35,139 nucleotides of DNA, from assembly GCA_002727675.1 (NCBI GenBank), contig PBXQ01000079.1:1-35139 (forward strand), in the 5' to 3' direction. The DNA comes from Thermoplasmata archaeon (GTDB lineage Archaea > Thermoplasmatota > Poseidoniia > Poseidoniales > Thalassarchaeaceae). The notes below the pieces were generated by a model. That model was not told the DNA's origin and made no database searches. It was given only the letters and a program-made list of their open reading frames with translations. Positions 2,337 through 35,139 of the stretch are shown in pieces. Made by a program: the position numbers and the translations under genes. The number at the start of each line of letters is the position of its first letter. Position 1 is the first letter of the stretch.

Positions 2337-3367
2337 TTCCCCACCTCATTTAATGCCTTTTCATATAGTTTAGACCACTTTTTACCCAATACTTCCGGTG
2401 TTTGTTGTGCTATTGCTGAGGGGCCATTCAAAGCCATTTGATGCCATTTATATACATCATTTAATATTTCAGATATTGTATTAGCCCATACCTCTGAATC
2501 CAATTTTTCAACAATAATACCGCCATCACCTAATATTCCTTCACAAGCAGATGAAGCAATAACTGGCAGGCCACATGACAATGCTTCCATTGCACATACA
2601 GGCATACCTTCAAAAACCGAAGGAATCAATAAAACTCCAGCCTTATGTAACAATTCATTTTTTTCTTTTCCTGATAACCACCCCCTTGCATGAATTCCAT
2701 CTGTTTCGTCTAAGTTTCTAACCCATCGGTGAGATGATTCTATTCCAGAAAGGTGTAAATTCAGATCTTGTCCTCTATTTCGTAATTTTTGAACAGCCTC
2801 AATCGCCAATTGGTGGCCCTTAATTGGTGAAGGACGTGCAAGTAAAATTAACAGATTTTTTTCCCTAGTTTTTGGATCAATTTTTGTTATTGAAGGGGCC
2901 GGCGATCCTATTACTTCCATATTTGACAGCCCAATTTCTCTTTTATGACGGGGTGTTAATGCAACAGGAGTAACTAATTTATGTTGAGTTAAATGAAAAA
3001 ACTCTCTTGCTGCTGGTGGTTTATTCAATAAAAACATATGAAAATTACCTGCATGAATTTGTAAAATAACGGGCACTTGAAATTTTATGCACATTTTCAC
3101 TGCTCTAAGCTTGCGCCACCAAGAAAAATTAGTTGCTGTATGGATATGAATAATATCTGGTTTATTATCCATTAATCGTTTTTTTAACTTCTTCTTTGCA
3201 CCCCTCCATGCATTAATTTTAGCAAAAACGGAGCCATCGACATGAGTATTGATTGATTCAGTAATCCATCCATTCGGTGGGTGTTTGAGGTGGTGTCGAA
3301 TAGTGGCTTGCATACCACCTTTACTTTCTACAGGGCCAATGTGTAATACCGTCCTCAACACGCCCAC
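2333..3367 (-). CDS. Glycosyltransferase (GT4-like)
   Basis: HIGPVESKGGMQATIRHH at the N-terminus; C-terminal PSVFEGMPVCAMEALSCGLPVIASSACEGI donor-binding motif; 4-bp overlap with the next gene. Confidence 0.87.
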   Translation of the reverse strand: MGVLRTVLHIGPVESKGGMQATIRHHLKHPPNGWITESINTHVDGSVFAKINAWRGAKKKLKKRLMDNKPDIIHIHTATNFSWWRKLRAVKMCIKFQVPVILQIHAGNFHMFLLNKPPAAREFFHLTQHKLVTPVALTPRHKREIGLSNMEVIGSPAPSITKIDPKTREKNLLILLARPSPIKGHQLAIEAVQKLRNRGQDLNLHLSGIESSHRWVRNLDETDGIHARGWLSGKEKNELLHKAGVLLIPSVFEGMPVCAMEALSCGLPVIASSACEGILGDGGIIVEKLDSEVWANTISEILNDVYKWHQMALNGPSAIAQQTPEVLGKKWSKLYEKALNEVGN

Positions 3368-3419
3368 CTCATGTCGGGGGAGTGTAGCAACGATATAAGA
3401 GACAGTTCATCGAGGTACC

Positions 3420-4541
3420 ATGAAACTGCTCTGGGTGACAGCAAAGAGATTAGCGAGCGACCTCGCTAGCACCACCCAATTATCCGTTTCAAACACTTTA
3501 TCTGAACGCGGTTGGGAGGTAACAATTATGGCCCCCAATGATTCCAATGCCAAAGAAATTGTTGACAATAATGGGCATAATTTTATTGGAGTAAAACGTT
3601 CGCAAAAAGCAGGATTAGGTTGGTTAACTTTTGGGAAATCTGTGAAACAAAAATTACCACAAGTGATAGATCAATTTGATGTTGTATTAGTTGATTGGCA
3701 AGCAGTGGCTGGGGCATCAAAAACATTGAATAATCATAAAATTCCTTGGTTAGTTGTTGATCGTAGTCCTCCTGTATTTAATTCAATTATTGGTAAACTT
3801 CAATGGCTTGAATATCTTCGTGCTTGGAGGATTGCAAAAAAGAAAAAAGCTAGTGGTTCGGTTTTAAAGTCTCAAGCCTTAGCAGATTTTCATCGTACAA
3901 AATATCGTGCAATTAACCCAATTACTATTATGGAAGCTGGAGTTGATGTGAGTAAATTTACGCCAACTAATTTTTCTGGAACTACAGTAATTGTTCATCA
4001 TGGCCAGTTAGATCAAGAAAGAGATATACTAAAATTGGTCAGTATAGGAGAAATCCTGTATTCTAGAAAGATTGATTTTATCATGAAAATTGCAGGCAGG
4101 GGCAATAAATTATCATCATTACAGAAATTATCCTATCTTCATGATTGGTTAGATGTATTAGGACCATTACCACAAAAAGAAATCCCAAAATTTCTCGCAT
4201 CGGGGCATTTAGCAATTTTTCCGTTGCCTGATAATAATATATGGAGATTAGCCAGTCCATTAAAAGTTAGAGAATGGGCGGCAGCAGGGTTACCTATGAT
4301 TTTATCAGATATTACTCCACATCAATCAATAGGTGAAAGAAATTGGATAAACTTGGTTCCTCCAAATTATCCATTAGATAAATGGGCAGATCAAGTTGAA
4401 TCATTCATTAGCCAAGATTTGCATTCTATAGGTGCACAAGCTAGAAAAGATGCAGAATTAGAATTTGATTGGAAGAAAACAACTGAACAATTACATATTC
4501 AATTAATGAAATTAAAGGGGTTAAGAAATGACAAAACGTAA
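3420..4541 (+). CDS. Glycosyltransferase (GT4-like)
   Basis: SVSNTLSERGWEVTIMAPND N-terminal; LASPLKVREWAAAGLPMILSDI C-terminal GT-B motif. Confidence 0.82.
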   Translation: MKLLWVTAKRLASDLASTTQLSVSNTLSERGWEVTIMAPNDSNAKEIVDNNGHNFIGVKRSQKAGLGWLTFGKSVKQKLPQVIDQFDVVLVDWQAVAGASKTLNNHKIPWLVVDRSPPVFNSIIGKLQWLEYLRAWRIAKKKKASGSVLKSQALADFHRTKYRAINPITIMEAGVDVSKFTPTNFSGTTVIVHHGQLDQERDILKLVSIGEILYSRKIDFIMKIAGRGNKLSSLQKLSYLHDWLDVLGPLPQKEIPKFLASGHLAIFPLPDNNIWRLASPLKVREWAAAGLPMILSDITPHQSIGERNWINLVPPNYPLDKWADQVESFISQDLHSIGAQARKDAELEFDWKKTTEQLHIQLMKLKGLRNDKT

Positions 4542-5787
4542 AGTTGCGCCCCATCGTGATACACTATGGCTATCAACTGCAGATGCAATTAATTTAATCT
4601 TTGGAATAATAATTCATGTCATCCTTACTCGAGTTTTACTCAGTAGTGATTATGGACTTTTCATATTATTACTAGATTTTTTCCATGTATGTGTAATAAT
4701 AATAGATTTAGGAATGCCAACATTAATTGGTAGAGATGGTGAACGTTTAGGAATTCATCTGAATAAGGTTATTAGAAAAATCATTAAGATTCAGATAGTA
4801 CCATTTTTAATTGGGATATTTCTTTTTTCTTTCATTGGGGTCTATCTATTTGGTGGTTGGATTGAAGTTGCAATAATACTATCAATTAGTGCAGGATTAC
4901 TAGTTTTAACATACTCTTATCGTTCTGCTTTGCGTTCTTTAGGTGAGGCTCGTATTGAAGCTATAATAAGAATCATCGATAGAGGTGTGGTAGCATTTCT
5001 AATGATTACTTGGTCTAGTACCATACTTGAATTTGCAATTGCTACTCTTATCGGACCAATTTGTTCTTTTGTTATAGCATATACAATTTTCAAATTAAAA
5101 GTTTCACCTCAACTATCTGTCCCAAGTGAAGAAATTCCTGAGATTTCTGAATATGATAATTATAATTTGATAAAAGCAGGATTGCCATTTCTATTTGCTT
5201 CCGCAGCATTAGTAATTAATGTCAGAATTGAAAAATTATTGTTAGGCTTTATTGCTGGCCCTAACGATGTTGCTATCTATCAGATTGCATGGTTGGGTTT
5301 TATTGCGGGTTATGGGCCTATTTTATCTTTAAGGGCAATTTTACTGTCTTGGTTTGGGGAAGTTCGCGACGACTTAGAGAAAGTAATCTATCGTTTCAAA
5401 AGAGCAATGTACGCTACTATAATTGTAGCAATATTAGGAGCAATAATTGCTTTCTTAATCTATCCCTTTGTGTATGATATATTATTCCCAGAATATACTG
5501 ATTCTGTAAATTTACCATTTCGTATTTTACTTATTTCTTGGATATTACATACTATTTCTAGTCCGTCGTTATCATTAATTCAAACATCTACCACACCTTG
5601 GAAATACACTAGAATTCTATGGTATGGTATTACAGTTAGCGGTGTAGTTTGCCTATGCCTTATCTACAGTCTATCAAATGCAGTAATTGGGGCAACAATA
5701 GGAACAGTTTGTGGATCAACGATCGTATTCATTTTATCTATTTATAATTCTAGAACTATGATAAATAAATCAGAAATTAATGTTTAA
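4528..5787 (+). CDS. Polysaccharide flippase-like multi-TM protein (MATE/Wzx superfamily)
   Basis: Around 12 hydrophobic segments, STADAINLIFGIIIHVILTRVLLSSDYGLFILLLDF start typical of flippases; overlaps the upstream GT gene. Confidence 0.78.
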   Translation: MTKRKVAPHRDTLWLSTADAINLIFGIIIHVILTRVLLSSDYGLFILLLDFFHVCVIIIDLGMPTLIGRDGERLGIHLNKVIRKIIKIQIVPFLIGIFLFSFIGVYLFGGWIEVAIILSISAGLLVLTYSYRSALRSLGEARIEAIIRIIDRGVVAFLMITWSSTILEFAIATLIGPICSFVIAYTIFKLKVSPQLSVPSEEIPEISEYDNYNLIKAGLPFLFASAALVINVRIEKLLLGFIAGPNDVAIYQIAWLGFIAGYGPILSLRAILLSWFGEVRDDLEKVIYRFKRAMYATIIVAILGAIIAFLIYPFVYDILFPEYTDSVNLPFRILLISWILHTISSPSLSLIQTSTTPWKYTRILWYGITVSGVVCLCLIYSLSNAVIGATIGTVCGSTIVFILSIYNSRTMINKSEINV

Positions 5788-24207: not shown

Positions 24208-24972
24208 ATGGCGAAGAAGGCGGGGTCGGCTAAGAAGAAGTCAGATAGTGCTGCAGCAAAGAAAAAATCAGCGGCGGCAAAGAAGGCAGCAGAGACAAGA
24301 AAGAAGAATGCAGCAGCCAAGAAAAAGGCAGCAGCAGCGAAAAAAGCAGCAGAAACTCGCAAAAAGAATGCAGCAGCCAAGAAAAAGGCTGAAGCAGCAG
24401 CAGCCAAGAAAAAGGCAGCAGCAGCGAAAAAAGCAGCGGAAACTCGCAAAAAGAATGCAGCAGCCAAGAAAAAGGCAGCGGAAGAAGCAGAAGCAGCTGC
24501 AAAAAGAAAGGTTGCAGCAGCTAAGGCGGCAGCCACAAGAGCTGCTAAAAAGGCAGAAAAAGCGGCTGCAGAAAAAGCAGCAGCGAAAAAGGCAAAAGCG
24601 GCAAAGGCAGCAGCAACTCGTAAGAAAAACGCAGCTGCTAAAGCTAAAGCAAAGGCAGACGCAGAAGCAGCGGAAGCAGCTCGTTTAGCCCTTGAAGCAA
24701 AGCGTAAACCCGGTTTGTTACTTGCTTCAGATCAAAAAGATGCAAATGTTGCTAAAAAGTTGCGAGCAAGAGCAGCCACATCAACAGCAGCTACTCACGT
24801 TGATTCACGCCAAGAAGTTTCTAAAATCATGTCAAAGGCAGTTAAATCCGGTTCTGGCAAGAAAGAAACTGCAGAAAAGAGGAAAAAGGCATTTCATAAG
24901 CGCTGGCTCGAAGGTGGTAATGCAAAAACGATTGAAGAGTTTGCCTGGCAAAGAGAGTTTCTTAATTCATAA
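24208..24972 (+). CDS. Histone H1-like Lys/Ala-rich repeat protein
   Basis: Repeated AAKKAAETRKKNAAAKKKA units over about 140 aa, then a non-repetitive C-terminal domain. Confidence 0.78.
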   Translation: MAKKAGSAKKKSDSAAAKKKSAAAKKAAETRKKNAAAKKKAAAAKKAAETRKKNAAAKKKAEAAAAKKKAAAAKKAAETRKKNAAAKKKAAEEAEAAAKRKVAAAKAAATRAAKKAEKAAAEKAAAKKAKAAKAAATRKKNAAAKAKAKADAEAAEAARLALEAKRKPGLLLASDQKDANVAKKLRARAATSTAATHVDSRQEVSKIMSKAVKSGSGKKETAEKRKKAFHKRWLEGGNAKTIEEFAWQREFLNS

Positions 24973-25198: not shown

Positions 25199-26245
25199 TT
25201 ATTCGATTTCTCCGAATAAATCAGGCTCTTGTGCTCTATGATATACTTCTCTTAGGGTTTGATCAGTTATGTCAAGATAAACACGAGTTGTGCTGATATC
25301 AGCGTGTCCGAGTAGTCTCTGAATACTAACAATATCTGCGCCACGCTCAAGTAAGCCAGTTGCAAAATTATGCCTCAATGTATGAGGTGAAAGGCGTTTT
25401 CTTGGAATGTGCGCCTCATCTGCAAGTTTGTCCATCATTTTTTGTACGTTTCTTTGAGTAAGTCTGTGCCCTCGCGAATTTATGAATAATGCTTCTTCAT
25501 CTGTAGTATTTCGTGTGGTCTTATGCAACATCCATTTTTCCATTACTGATTTACTCAGTTTAGTGAATAAAACTCGGCGGTCTTTGTTTCCTTTTCCAGA
25601 CCATACTGTTGCAGATAAATCATTAAAATCAATATCAGAGATATTCAATGCACATAATTCACCAACCCTCAGACCTGTTTCTAATAATACAACAACGATT
25701 ACTTCTGCAAGAGGATTTTCTGATTGACGGCAAACTTTGATTAAATCATTCAGTTCTTGACGAGTTAAAGTACGGGGTAATTTTTTACTTCTCTGCGGGC
25801 GTACAATCCATTCAGGAATAGTATGTCCAATCCATTTCAATAAATGTGTTATTGCAGCCAATCGGGCATTAATTGTTGATGGCTGTAAATGAGAGATGGA
25901 TTGCAACCAAATATCAAGTCGGCCGTTATTTGGATCAAGATGACCAACTGATTTAATCATGGTAAAATCTTCGATTTCCTCGTCAGTTAATTTTTCTTCA
26001 CATGGTAAATTAGTTGCAATTAGTTGACGGGAAGCAATAAAATATGCTCTTGATGTGTGTTTACTCTTCTTTTCTGAAACTAATTGTTGTTTATAGCAAC
26101 CAAGCATTGGCAAGTCTCTGAGCCGAGATAATCTGGCTGGTAATGTGAAACCATGACCTACTACTTCATCACTAAAACGCTCAAGATATTGGCGATTACC
26201 AGAATCAGCCCATGTCTGTTTTTCATCATTATTTTTCTGCGACAT
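25199..26245 (-). CDS. Tyrosine recombinase, XerA/XerC/D-like
   Basis: TGLRVGELCAL, SPHTLRHNFATGLL, RLLGHADISTTRVYLDIT: catalytic R, HxLRH, GH and Y residues present; SAM-like N-terminal domain. Confidence 0.93.
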   Translation of the reverse strand: MSQKNNDEKQTWADSGNRQYLERFSDEVVGHGFTLPARLSRLRDLPMLGCYKQQLVSEKKSKHTSRAYFIASRQLIATNLPCEEKLTDEEIEDFTMIKSVGHLDPNNGRLDIWLQSISHLQPSTINARLAAITHLLKWIGHTIPEWIVRPQRSKKLPRTLTRQELNDLIKVCRQSENPLAEVIVVVLLETGLRVGELCALNISDIDFNDLSATVWSGKGNKDRRVLFTKLSKSVMEKWMLHKTTRNTTDEEALFINSRGHRLTQRNVQKMMDKLADEAHIPRKRLSPHTLRHNFATGLLERGADIVSIQRLLGHADISTTRVYLDITDQTLREVYHRAQEPDLFGEIE

Positions 26246-29070: not shown

Positions 29071-29182
29071 GACTCAAATTGATTTTGGGGTTTGCTTTAA
29101 TGTCTTGCAAATTACCAATTCCATAACAAAAGGCCGAAGATGTTGAAAGCCTCTAGTGTCCCCTATCATCTTGGGACACAGA

Positions 29183-31261
29183 ATGGTTGCTGATTCATCG
29201 CCTACTGCTTCTGAGCTAAAATCTATGAATGTGGCCACTTTGAAAGAAATGTGTAAAGAACATGGTTTGAAGGTTTCAGGTAAAAAACAGGAACTTATTG
29301 ACAGGTTATTAGAGGCGACAGCATCTGATGATGATATTTTTCTCTTAGAAGAGGAAGATGATGTAGATGTAATCTATGAAGCTGAAATTGAAGAAGAGGC
29401 TTTTGAACCCTCTATAATTGAAGAAGTAGAAGACGAAATTTTAGATGCTGAAGTTTTCGAAGCAGAACTCTTCGAAGATGAAGAAGAAGATTTTTTCCAA
29501 GAATCTGAACCCAAGGCTGTTAGGAAAACAAGATTACAAGGAGAATCTATATTTTCATCATTATCTAAACCTAATGTAATTGCAACTTTATTAGTTGTAT
29601 TAATTATTGCAGGTGGTGGATATTGGTATTGGAGTAGTCATCTAGATCCGTTTGTCTCTAAGCCCATAGAATATGGAGATCAAATGGAATTTACTATATC
29701 TAGTGGTACATTTGAGGTCGAGGGCGAAGAAATGATTAGAGAGATTGACAATCGTCTTAATGGTGCTCTTGCAGAAATTTGTGAAAAAATTAATGTTGAA
29801 TTTTATGGTTCCGGGGATATTTCTGTTAAGAAGGGAACTAGTAGTGAATTACTAGATTCATCAGACACAAAATTACTCGGGACAGTACAGGCAAAAGATG
29901 CCTATGGGTTGACATTTCTTGCAGTTGAACAAGAATTGACACACCAACTTACTGCAAACATAGAATCTAAAACTTGGTTTGGTGATTCTTCAGAAGGACA
30001 TTGTTCAGTAGAGGGTTCAGTTCCTGGTTATTCTTTATCTCAAACATCTAAATCATGGACTGAAATTGGTAGTAAAGCATTGCTAAGTACTGATTCCTCA
30101 TTAACTTTAGAAGATCCACAAGGTGCTGAAACCTCAATCAATGCAGTATCATTTGGCGTTCCTGATGATTCTTTATCTGATATCATGCCTGAATTATTAC
30201 TTCCCTTAAAACCCGTTGAACTAACTCCTTTATTTGGTAATTCATTACTTGAAGAAGGAAGTAGTGGAACTAGTGGATATTGGGATTGGGTGGTTAGTGG
30301 TTCAGTATCTGTTGATGGAGTAAAGGGATTACAAATCAATATGCAACATACAGAAATTGAAGATTGTATAGGTAGAGCAAACATGGTTCTCTATGTTGTA
30401 CCTTCATCTCCTTGGGCTGTAGAACAACGTGTTGATATTAATCTTGAAAAAAGTCGTTACGATTCATCTGGTTGTGGAGTTTTTGCTGAATATTTAATCG
30501 ACCAAACATTGCCAGAAGGGTCCATAAGTATTCAATATACATTGGTTAAATCATCTATTAATGAGGGTGATGGCATGATTAATTGGCTAGAAGGTTACAA
30601 TCATCGCCCCGCTTCAAATTCAGGTGCAATATCAGCAAATCAAAACTGGGGTAATTCTGGCACGCATATGCCTGACCTAAGCGAATCAAGAGATTGGACA
30701 TTAGATGATGCTGTTGCATGTATAATTAACAAAACAGTTGAGGCTAATGATGCTGCAATTTCTCTAGCATCAGGGGGGTATGTATTCAAAGCTACAGATG
30801 ATAGAAGTAATGGCAATACTCAATGGAATGTTTCGTGGGTGGATGACAATAATGCAGGATGGGTAATAGTTGAAAGTAGGACAGAAAATTGTTCAGTATT
30901 AAGTTTAGATTCTCTTAATGAAGCCGATAGCCCAGCACATAGAAGAGAGAGCATTCCGAAATCAGCCACGATTAAAGAAATTGAAGATAGGATTATCGAT
31001 CCAGAAAGGTATCCTTCATTGGTATCAGATATCACGTCTAATGGTAAATTAACCAGTGATACAACAATTGGGTATTTCTTGACAGTGCCACCCGAAGCAA
31101 ATGATTTGTTAGATTTGATAGATGGTTATCAAGATGGAACAATTGGTGTTACAGGACAACGTGAATGGACTGAAAATGGATTAGATCATTCACTAAATTA
31201 TGCAATTGATGGCACAAATGGCAGAATGGTTGGCTGGATCAAAACTTCTTCAAATTCCTAA
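29183..31261 (+). CDS. SAP-domain membrane protein with a large extracytoplasmic region
   Basis: ELKSMNVATLKEMCKEHGLKVSGKKQELIDRLLEA (SAP); acidic linker; TM VIATLLVVLIIAGGGYWYW; likely start at 29183. Confidence 0.78.
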   Translation: MVADSSPTASELKSMNVATLKEMCKEHGLKVSGKKQELIDRLLEATASDDDIFLLEEEDDVDVIYEAEIEEEAFEPSIIEEVEDEILDAEVFEAELFEDEEEDFFQESEPKAVRKTRLQGESIFSSLSKPNVIATLLVVLIIAGGGYWYWSSHLDPFVSKPIEYGDQMEFTISSGTFEVEGEEMIREIDNRLNGALAEICEKINVEFYGSGDISVKKGTSSELLDSSDTKLLGTVQAKDAYGLTFLAVEQELTHQLTANIESKTWFGDSSEGHCSVEGSVPGYSLSQTSKSWTEIGSKALLSTDSSLTLEDPQGAETSINAVSFGVPDDSLSDIMPELLLPLKPVELTPLFGNSLLEEGSSGTSGYWDWVVSGSVSVDGVKGLQINMQHTEIEDCIGRANMVLYVVPSSPWAVEQRVDINLEKSRYDSSGCGVFAEYLIDQTLPEGSISIQYTLVKSSINEGDGMINWLEGYNHRPASNSGAISANQNWGNSGTHMPDLSESRDWTLDDAVACIINKTVEANDAAISLASGGYVFKATDDRSNGNTQWNVSWVDDNNAGWVIVESRTENCSVLSLDSLNEADSPAHRRESIPKSATIKEIEDRIIDPERYPSLVSDITSNGKLTSDTTIGYFLTVPPEANDLLDLIDGYQDGTIGVTGQREWTENGLDHSLNYAIDGTNGRMVGWIKTSSNS

Positions 31262-31314: not shown

Positions 31315-32271
31315 ATGGGTGAATCGATGAGAGGCGAAGAAAATAGCATCCCTGCTGCTGCTCCCGCACCTTTTGTAATCGATGTTGAATTTGTCGAGGA
31401 GGAGATAATTAGTCCTGAGCCACAAGAAGTTGGCCAAGCACAAATTCGTGAACCTCTAGACTTACCTCGTGCAGCTCCTACGCCTAAAGGAAGGGCCAGG
31501 GTTGTAACTGTAATCAATCAAAAAGGTGGAGTAGCAAAAACTACTACAGTAATCAATGTAGCAGCCCACCTTGCTATTCAAGGAGTAAAGGTTCTTGTGA
31601 TTGATTGTGATGCTCAGGGTAATTGTGCTACAGGTTATGGTATTGATAAATCAAGGATTAATTATGGTACAAGGACACTAATGGTTTCGCCAGAAGATGC
31701 AATTAGGGCAAGACATGCAACAGCCATAGAAAACCTCCATTTGATTGTAGCAGATAGGAAACTAGTTGGTATTGAAGAAGAATTAATTTCTCAACTTGGC
31801 CGGGAAAGAAGATTAGCAGAAGGCATAGAGATTCTCCTGCCTCATTATGATTTAATTCTAATTGACACCCCCCCTTCTCTTGGATTAGTTAGTATTAATG
31901 CATTAGTTGCTTCAGATGCTGTTGTAATTCCAGTTCAAACTGAATATTTTGCCTTAGAAGGATTAGCACTTCTATCTTCAACTATTAGAGAAATACGTCG
32001 CCGGCTTAATCCAAAACTGGGGGTAGATGCAGTGATTTTAACAATGCATGCCCCAACTCTTCTCAATGGCCAAGTAGCGTCTCAAGTAAGAGAAACATTC
32101 CCTGATTTAGTTTTAGATCCTCCAATCCGCAGAAACATTAGAATTGCAGAAGCACCGTCACATGGAACTCCAATTCATATTCATGCTCCAAAAAGTGCCG
32201 GAGGTCAAGATTATTTGCATTTGTCAAATTCTTTGATGAAATTATGGAATTTTGGTGAAGATAATGGGTGA
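31315..32271 (+). CDS. parA: ParA/Soj-family ATPase
   Basis: VVTVINQKGGVAKTTTVINVAAHLA (deviant Walker A), VLVIDCDAQGN, LILIDTPPSLG. Confidence 0.93.
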   Translation: MGESMRGEENSIPAAAPAPFVIDVEFVEEEIISPEPQEVGQAQIREPLDLPRAAPTPKGRARVVTVINQKGGVAKTTTVINVAAHLAIQGVKVLVIDCDAQGNCATGYGIDKSRINYGTRTLMVSPEDAIRARHATAIENLHLIVADRKLVGIEEELISQLGRERRLAEGIEILLPHYDLILIDTPPSLGLVSINALVASDAVVIPVQTEYFALEGLALLSSTIREIRRRLNPKLGVDAVILTMHAPTLLNGQVASQVRETFPDLVLDPPIRRNIRIAEAPSHGTPIHIHAPKSAGGQDYLHLSNSLMKLWNFGEDNG

Positions 32272-32734
32272 AAAAACAAACAAGCCAAAGAAGGGGCTTG
32301 GGCGTGGTTTGGGTGATTTACTTGCTCAACATGATACTGATTTACCGTTTCTTTCAGCATATGGGGAAGCAACAGGAGAACATGAAAAAGGAGTTCCTGC
32401 ATCAGCAGGTCAAGATAATTCCGATGAATTATTTGATGTGTGTCATAGATTTCTAATTTCTACATCAGGTTCTGAAAATCTCAAATTACACAAAAAGAAA
32501 ATCAGTGTGGGGGATTGGCTTGTAGTATCAAAGTCAAAAACTAATGGAATTGAATTGCATGTAGTCGGGATTAATTTACCCCTTGTCCCATCAGATTTAG
32601 TTACACCCGGAATGGTTGATGGTGCATTATCTGAAGATAGAAGCGAGGCAACAGTATGTATTATTCAGTGGGGAATAGAGTCAAGGAGATTACTTAGTCG
32701 TCTTTGTGAACATTTTACATTATTATCAAACTAA
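32264..32734 (+). CDS. Small putative ParA partner with ParB-type N-terminal GLGRGL motif
   Basis: MGEKTNKPKKGLGRGLGDLLAQ N-terminus; overlaps the parA stop; no recognisable ParB CTPase or HTH. Confidence 0.6.
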   Translation: MGEKTNKPKKGLGRGLGDLLAQHDTDLPFLSAYGEATGEHEKGVPASAGQDNSDELFDVCHRFLISTSGSENLKLHKKKISVGDWLVVSKSKTNGIELHVVGINLPLVPSDLVTPGMVDGALSEDRSEATVCIIQWGIESRRLLSRLCEHFTLLSN

Positions 32735-34741: not shown

Positions 34742-35139
34742 TCAACTGTATGTGATGGTATGCTCAATCTCCATCATGGACAACTCGTAGCCGCTGTAGG
34801 TGCCTTTCGACTCGAAGTACAGGCGTGTGTCCATGACCGTGATGTAGTTCGCATACCCACTTCCGCCTCCGCTGTAGATGTCTGCAACCTGCCATGTACA
34901 ACCACAAATCGTCTCGTGTACCCACAGTTCGTAGCCAGTGACCCCATCTATCGCCTCGAAGTACAGCCGTGTGCCCATGGCCGTGATGTCGGTCGGATAC
35001 CCACTACTGCTGCCACTGTTGATGTCTGCTGCTTGCCAAGTCGAGCCGTTTGTGGTTTCGTGTACCCACAGTTCGAAGCCGCTGTTGCCGTCGACCGCCT
35101 CGAAGTACAGTCGCGTGCCCATGACCGTGATCTCGTTCG
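34742..35139 (-). CDS. 3' end of a repeat-containing surface protein (ELWVHE repeats), truncated by the window edge
   Basis: Frame stays open through 35139; repeated MGTRLYFEA.DG..G.ELWVHET units; TGA stop at 34742-34744. Confidence 0.72.
   Translation of the reverse strand, partial: NEITVMGTRLYFEAVDGNSGFELWVHETTNGSTWQAADINSGSSSGYPTDITAMGTRLYFEAIDGVTGYELWVHETICGCTWQVADIYSGGGSGYANYITVMDTRLYFESKGTYSGYELSMMEIEHTITYS
34811..35139. repeat. Tandem repeats with 144-bp period
   Basis: CTCGAAGTACAG recurs at 34811, 34955 and 35099, an exact 144-bp (48-codon) spacing. Confidence 0.85.

Follow-up and report, generated by a model that had tools for sequence, protein, structure and literature searches.

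A ParA-type ATPase gene in the window, the whole 35,139-nucleotide stretch of archaeal DNA analysed here, is followed directly by a small gene whose product begins like ParB. To our knowledge few archaeal ParA/MinD ATPases have been assigned a role, and partners of such ATPases are difficult to spot, as they have no more than a short peptide in common. In the present case, a recognisable peptide and a conserved operon are found in one of the most abundant archaeal groups of the ocean. An earlier note on this DNA had claimed that the small gene overlaps the parA stop, and the overlap of 8 nt is confirmed by the coordinates of the two genes. The gene itself, with its ATG at 32264 and a stop ending at 32734, is likewise confirmed, although its product has 156 and not about 157 residues. 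The features of the locus are the following.

29156..31261, + strand: SAP-domain protein, for which a single membrane helix is predicted by reading the sequence, directly upstream of parA1
31315..32271, + strand: parA1, ParA/Soj-type ATPase of 318 aa with an acidic N-terminal extension, overlapping the partner gene by 8 nt
31522..31545, + strand: deviant Walker A motif KGGVAKTT of ParA1, with the signature lysine
32264..32734, + strand: ParA1 partner gene, 156 aa, with an N-terminal ParB-type tag, a 35-residue conserved disordered arm and an alpha/beta core
32294..32323, + strand: GLGRGLGDLL, residues 11-20, with the equivalents of Myxococcus ParB L11, R13, L15, L18 and I19
32339..32365, + strand: second short motif DLPFLSAYG, residues 26-34, conserved and predicted to be disordered
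32414..32731, + strand: core domain, residues 51-156, arranged as helix, four strands, short helix, two strands, helix

The partner has the N-terminus MGEKTNKPKKGLGRGLGDLLAQHD, with the tag-bearing start KKGLGRGLGDLL, and the N-terminal ParA-binding motif of ParB, L-x-R-x-L-x-x-L-[LI], is present. In Myxococcus ParB, the residues contacting ParA are L11, R13, L15, L18 and I19 (PMC12462528), and all five have equivalents in the LGRGLGDLL of the partner, which reads as L-x-R-x-L-x-x-L-L. Residues R14, L16 and L19 of the partner were R/K, L/F and L/F in 51/51 diverse homologs, and the positions corresponding to ParB R13, L15, L18 and I19 were R/K, L/F, L/F and M/L/I/F in the same 51. The ParB-type GLGRGL N-terminus of the earlier note is therefore as stated, and the motif is kept across homologs. 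The second motif, DLPFLSAYG, was more conserved than the ParB-like tag itself, though predicted to be disordered, with L27, F29, L30 and Y33 invariant in 51/51 homologs. Besides this N-terminal arm, the other highly conserved stretch was the core motif LPxVxSD...W...RR...R..E. An example of the corresponding peptide from Poseidoniaceae is KSRDLDHLMEQN. Among open reading frames of at least 120 aa in the parA1 neighbourhood of relatives (16 stretches), GLGRGL occurred four times in 88,392 residues, all four in the gene directly after parA1, and a genome-wide scan of the window's own genome with a degenerate DNA pattern found a single GLGRGL at the start of a reading frame, that of the partner gene. 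Because the motif is rare in the surveyed frames and confined to the gene after parA1, we do not attribute it to chance.

The remainder of the protein is not ParB-like. AlphaFold2 modelling from 26 sequences gave a pLDDT of about 94 for residues 51-156 and low confidence for residues 1-50, which are therefore probably disordered. In the modelled core, one long helix at each end encloses six strands, and neither a helix-turn-helix (HTH) nor a ribbon-helix-helix (RHH) domain was found. The ParB/Srx CTP-binding domain was absent from Pfam and NCBIfam searches to E = 10, in which the partner had no match at all, and from the modelled core, which is of another fold; this bears out the earlier reading that a ParB core and an HTH are missing. 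The same model and the lack of a confident PDB match agree with the further proposal of another, possibly new, domain, which seems not to have been described before. No family was assigned to the partner by Pfam, NCBIfam, PHROGs or PADLOC, and its profile had no match among PDB sequences. Fold searches gave nothing better than E 1e-3. With the first model, Foldseek returned weak matches to the T4 MotA C-terminal domain (E 6e-3, TM 0.52 by target) and to type III secretion chaperones (E 0.01-0.05); neither resemblance was reproduced with a second model, of a 109-residue minimal homolog based on 51 sequences (best MotA E 0.6). Scattered low-count matches in a Pfam scan of alignment members, the best being PA2201_N at 1.6e-4 in one or two members, were treated as chance. 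The core was acidic in most of 13 homologs sampled (pI 4.3-6.8), which argues against DNA binding. In the window's own genome, which is about 71% complete, no match to ParB_N (PF02195) was obtained. A search of the order for hidden ParB proteins brought 5/116 genomes above the cut-off, with reading frames of about 140-220 aa, and none of the ParB-like cases compared lay on a contig carrying ParA1.

Homologs of the partner were detected in 38/59 close relatives and in 199/324 Poseidoniales genomes. Among 394 genomes across the phylum there were 82 matches, all in Poseidoniales, and no sampled genome outside this order contained a homolog. A scan of the GTDB collection gave matches in records named Poseidoniales, Poseidoniaceae, Thalassarchaeaceae, Marine Group II or plain Euryarchaeota, and viral contigs gave no partner homologs. 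Homologs were thus confined to archaea, in line with the archaeal system that the note had proposed. The partner gene starts close to the parA1 stop in every measured pair, at most 8 nt inside it or 5 nt beyond. The conservation of the parA and small gene pair, which the note had named as a check, holds in this sense, but it is not universal. ParA1 was present in all genera of the window's family (f1), taken as Thalassarchaeaceae, and in genera g16, g17, g20 and g21 of a second family (f2), which we take to be Poseidoniaceae. It was not found in seven further genera of the latter, g12-15, g18, g19 and g22, which retain the partner with most of its motif; in g13 and g14 the SAP-domain gene directly adjoins the partner, the arrangement that excision of parA1 would leave. 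Partners without ParA1 kept R-x-L-x-x-L and had mostly lost L11. Among related sequences, L11 was present in 16/19 homologs beside ParA1 versus 8/32 without it, one of the 32 (L010) being miscounted as its parA1 is cut by the contig end. We rejected the idea that the motif is simply lost along with ParA1, for only L11 follows ParA1 and the R-x-L-x-x-L part does not. Since the motif persists without ParA1, it is expected to have a use beyond this ATPase, which may be with ParA2, the second ParA of these genomes, or with something else. We judge the pair to be a real, lineage-specific variant of the ParA-partner theme.

ParA1 retains the catalytic D58, D60 and N64 and the DNA-binding R/K238. We compared the canonical ParB-docking residues V116, L150, L152, L155, L187, L192, Y81, E82, D110 and E117, using as mapping reference chain 8ray, which from its D60A change is presumably Myxococcus ParA. 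The floor of the hydrophobic pocket was mostly retained (150 mostly L, 152 mostly L/I, 155 I/V, 192 mostly L), as was position 117 in kind. Changes were found at Y81 (R/K), D110 (S/T/K/R/N), L187 (mostly E) and V116 (Q/E/D/N). Judged from these alignments, the docking site is mostly kept in its hydrophobic half and changed in its R13 half; this supports the general docking mode, with differences in detail.

Within the window's own family, the core gene was absent from genera g4, g5, g6, g8, g9, g10 and g11, and an EamA transporter lay directly after parA1 in these seven genera in every case with a measurable parA stop. The conservation of the pair is limited here too, as the transporter replaces the core, often with the same tag. 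The EamA gene (Pfam E 4e-26) preceded the same convergent nitroreductase gene at the loci inspected. Across a 150-genome survey of the family its ortholog was restricted to the seven core-less genera, with no case in the g1, g2, g3 or g7 genomes. The tag was fused ahead of the first membrane helix in 43/82 readable upstream regions, as a leader of about 30 residues of the form GLGRGL...(P)DLSSF, in which DLPFLSAYG is reduced to DLSSF. Tagged transporters made up 10/10 in g11, 8/8 in g5, 20/20 readable regions in g6 (with two variants, GLGMGL and GLGISL), 4/15 in g4 and 1/7 in g9. The leader was cleanly missing from the other 39/82, comprising all of g8 and g10 and most of g4 and g9, and the leader-less transporters begin close after the parA1 stop. 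For g8 and g10, a search of genomes for a partner in trans turned up no other gene beginning with GLGRGL. Between genera, the GLGRGL codons showed 71% synonymous versus 6% non-synonymous differences, a pattern indicating purifying selection on the tag, with the constraint somewhat overstated as the rows were chosen by motif. All EamA-type rows group together in the ParA1 tree (support 100/97), and core-bearing g7 is the sister of their clade (95/87), so that a single replacement of core by transporter, followed by repeated losses of the tag, is the history we derive. No earlier case of such a tag fused to a membrane protein was found in the literature searched, and its move onto one is, as far as we know, new.

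A second ParA (ParA2) was present in all 59 genomes searched, followed, at almost every locus inspected, by a conserved gene for an RHH-like protein of 80-90 aa (MTSVSVSxExRRQLNxMR...), the RHH being read by eye and giving no Pfam match. The loci are as follows.

G000:C44 (L059), about 3206-4291 and downstream: ParA2 locus
G036 (L060), 3474-4908: ParA2 locus
L092-L099: further ParA2 loci

Upstream of ParA2, a MoxR-like AAA ATPase was recognised by eye. ParA2 and the RHH-like gene are a candidate for the chromosome segregation pair of Poseidoniales. With ParA2 in all 59 genomes, next to an RHH-like gene at almost every locus inspected, we favour a positioning or adaptor function for the ParA1 pair over chromosome segregation. 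Of the "segregation or positioning" put forward in the earlier note, segregation is therefore the less likely part and positioning of another cargo the more likely one.

We consider it fairly probable that the partner is a ParA1 adaptor, in which the ParB-type tag docks on the ATPase and the folded domain bears a cargo other than a ParB/parS complex, and that this domain was swapped once for EamA. Like the N-terminus of ParB, the basic, disordered peptide KKGLGRGLGDLL would bind along the edge of the ParA1 dimer in its ATP-bound state, and this docking would promote ATP hydrolysis and the release of ParA1, a putative nucleoid-binding ATPase, from DNA. The folded C-terminal domain would connect ParA1 to its cargo. 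In the common ancestor of the seven sister genera this domain would have been replaced once by EamA, with the tag kept at first; having outlasted the replacement, the tag would amount to a portable module for binding ParA. Binding to ParA1, stimulation of its ATPase and a role in positioning are what we infer from this arrangement. Three points speak against a simple adaptor story: partners occur where ParA1 is missing, some ParA1-EamA pairs have no tag, and ParA1 has lost part of the canonical ParB docking site. A more tentative extension, which we hold to be possible rather than probable, is that the tag moved from a soluble adaptor to a transporter, and that a gradient of nucleoid-bound ParA would position or regulate the transporter in one clade and a soluble cargo in another.

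Three other explanations were weighed against the adaptor. The core could be a centromere-binding domain of new fold, the pair segregating DNA (a chromosome or a region) without ParB. Adjacency to parA and the DNA-binding nature of the best weak fold match, MotA, speak for this, but the match was lost with the second model, the core is acidic in most homologs sampled, ParA2 with its RHH-like gene is the obvious segregation pair, and a membrane transporter takes the place of the core in sister genera. A location near the origin was not supported either: in the sole complete chromosome, the partner and the main orc1/cdc6 gene are about 186 kb apart. We regard this explanation as the least likely of the three. 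Slightly less improbable is that the partner serves the ParA family in general, using ParA2 where ParA1 is absent, so that its main ATPase is not fixed. The R/K, L/F, L of the motif is indeed kept in all homologs without ParA1, and the hydrophobic ParB pocket of ParA2, which all 59 genomes searched have, is more canonical than that of ParA1; however, the partner adjoins parA1 tightly wherever both genes occur, was never seen beside ParA2, which has its own RHH-like neighbour, and has mostly lost L11 without ParA1.

To the same low degree we would credit the view that DLPFLSAYG and the N-terminal motif together make up an arm with a regulatory or structural task for the core, the likeness to ParB being convergent and the gene order reflecting operon conservation only. 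The arm does persist without ParA1, and DLPFLSAYG is conserved even beyond the ParB-like part. Against it stand the absence of GLGRGL from the other surveyed frames and the transfer of the tag to an unrelated protein solely at the position after parA1.

With chromosomal ParB/Spo0J, the partner shares the L-x-R-x-L-x-x-L-[LI] peptide in a disordered basic arm and the position after a ParA/Soj-type parA; it differs in having neither the ParB/Srx CTPase nor an HTH, in being half the size and in its other folded domain. Known partners of ParA/MinD ATPases, as described for bacteria, act through a charged disordered N-terminus, the rest being given to the cargo (PMC10241942, PMC9178275). McdB, TlpT, PomX and MinE are similar in being small, with such an N-terminus, and encoded beside a ParA-type ATPase, whereas the partner described here has an actual ParB-type consensus and an archaeal host. 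In the family, profile and fold searches its core had no detectable similarity to a known family. Archaeal SegAB and ParA-RHH systems also combine a ParA-type ATPase with a small partner, but here the partner is not an RHH protein, and the ParA2 and RHH-like pair is separate in the same genomes. The replacement partner is, by its Pfam match, an EamA/DMT transporter, distinguished by the ParB-type N-terminal tag and its place directly after parA. As the cargo module was swapped with the tag kept part of the time, the sister genera offer a natural experiment on the ParA residues that read the tag, with two testable protein pairs, ParA1 with the core partner and ParA1 with the tagged EamA. The tag on the transporter suggests that evolution here handed a new cargo to an existing positioning motor.

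The SAP-domain gene was found upstream of parA1 in both core- and EamA-bearing genera, and its predicted product is a possible third component, a candidate membrane-anchored DNA-binding protein. At its N-terminus ParA1 has an acidic extension (FVIDVEFVEEE, 31315-31490) that resembles the acidic repeats AEVFEAELFEDE of the SAP-domain protein (29156-29560), and these stretches may represent a shared interaction motif. One g7 genome, L083 (G225:C9), had two ParA1 copies, one of which matches a g3 sequence at every aligned column; that MAG is probably contaminated, the alternative being transfer. Elsewhere in the window, a lysine/alanine-rich histone-H1-like protein, MAKKAGSAKKKSD..., is encoded at 24208-24972 on the + strand and had no Pfam match. 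A tyrosine recombinase at 25199-26245 on the − strand (Pfam Phage_integrase, E 2e-41) belongs to the same conserved neighbourhood. At the window edge, 34742-35137 on the − strand encodes tandem repeats of about 45 aa (MGTRLYFEA.DG.SGYELWVHET), likely those of a surface protein.
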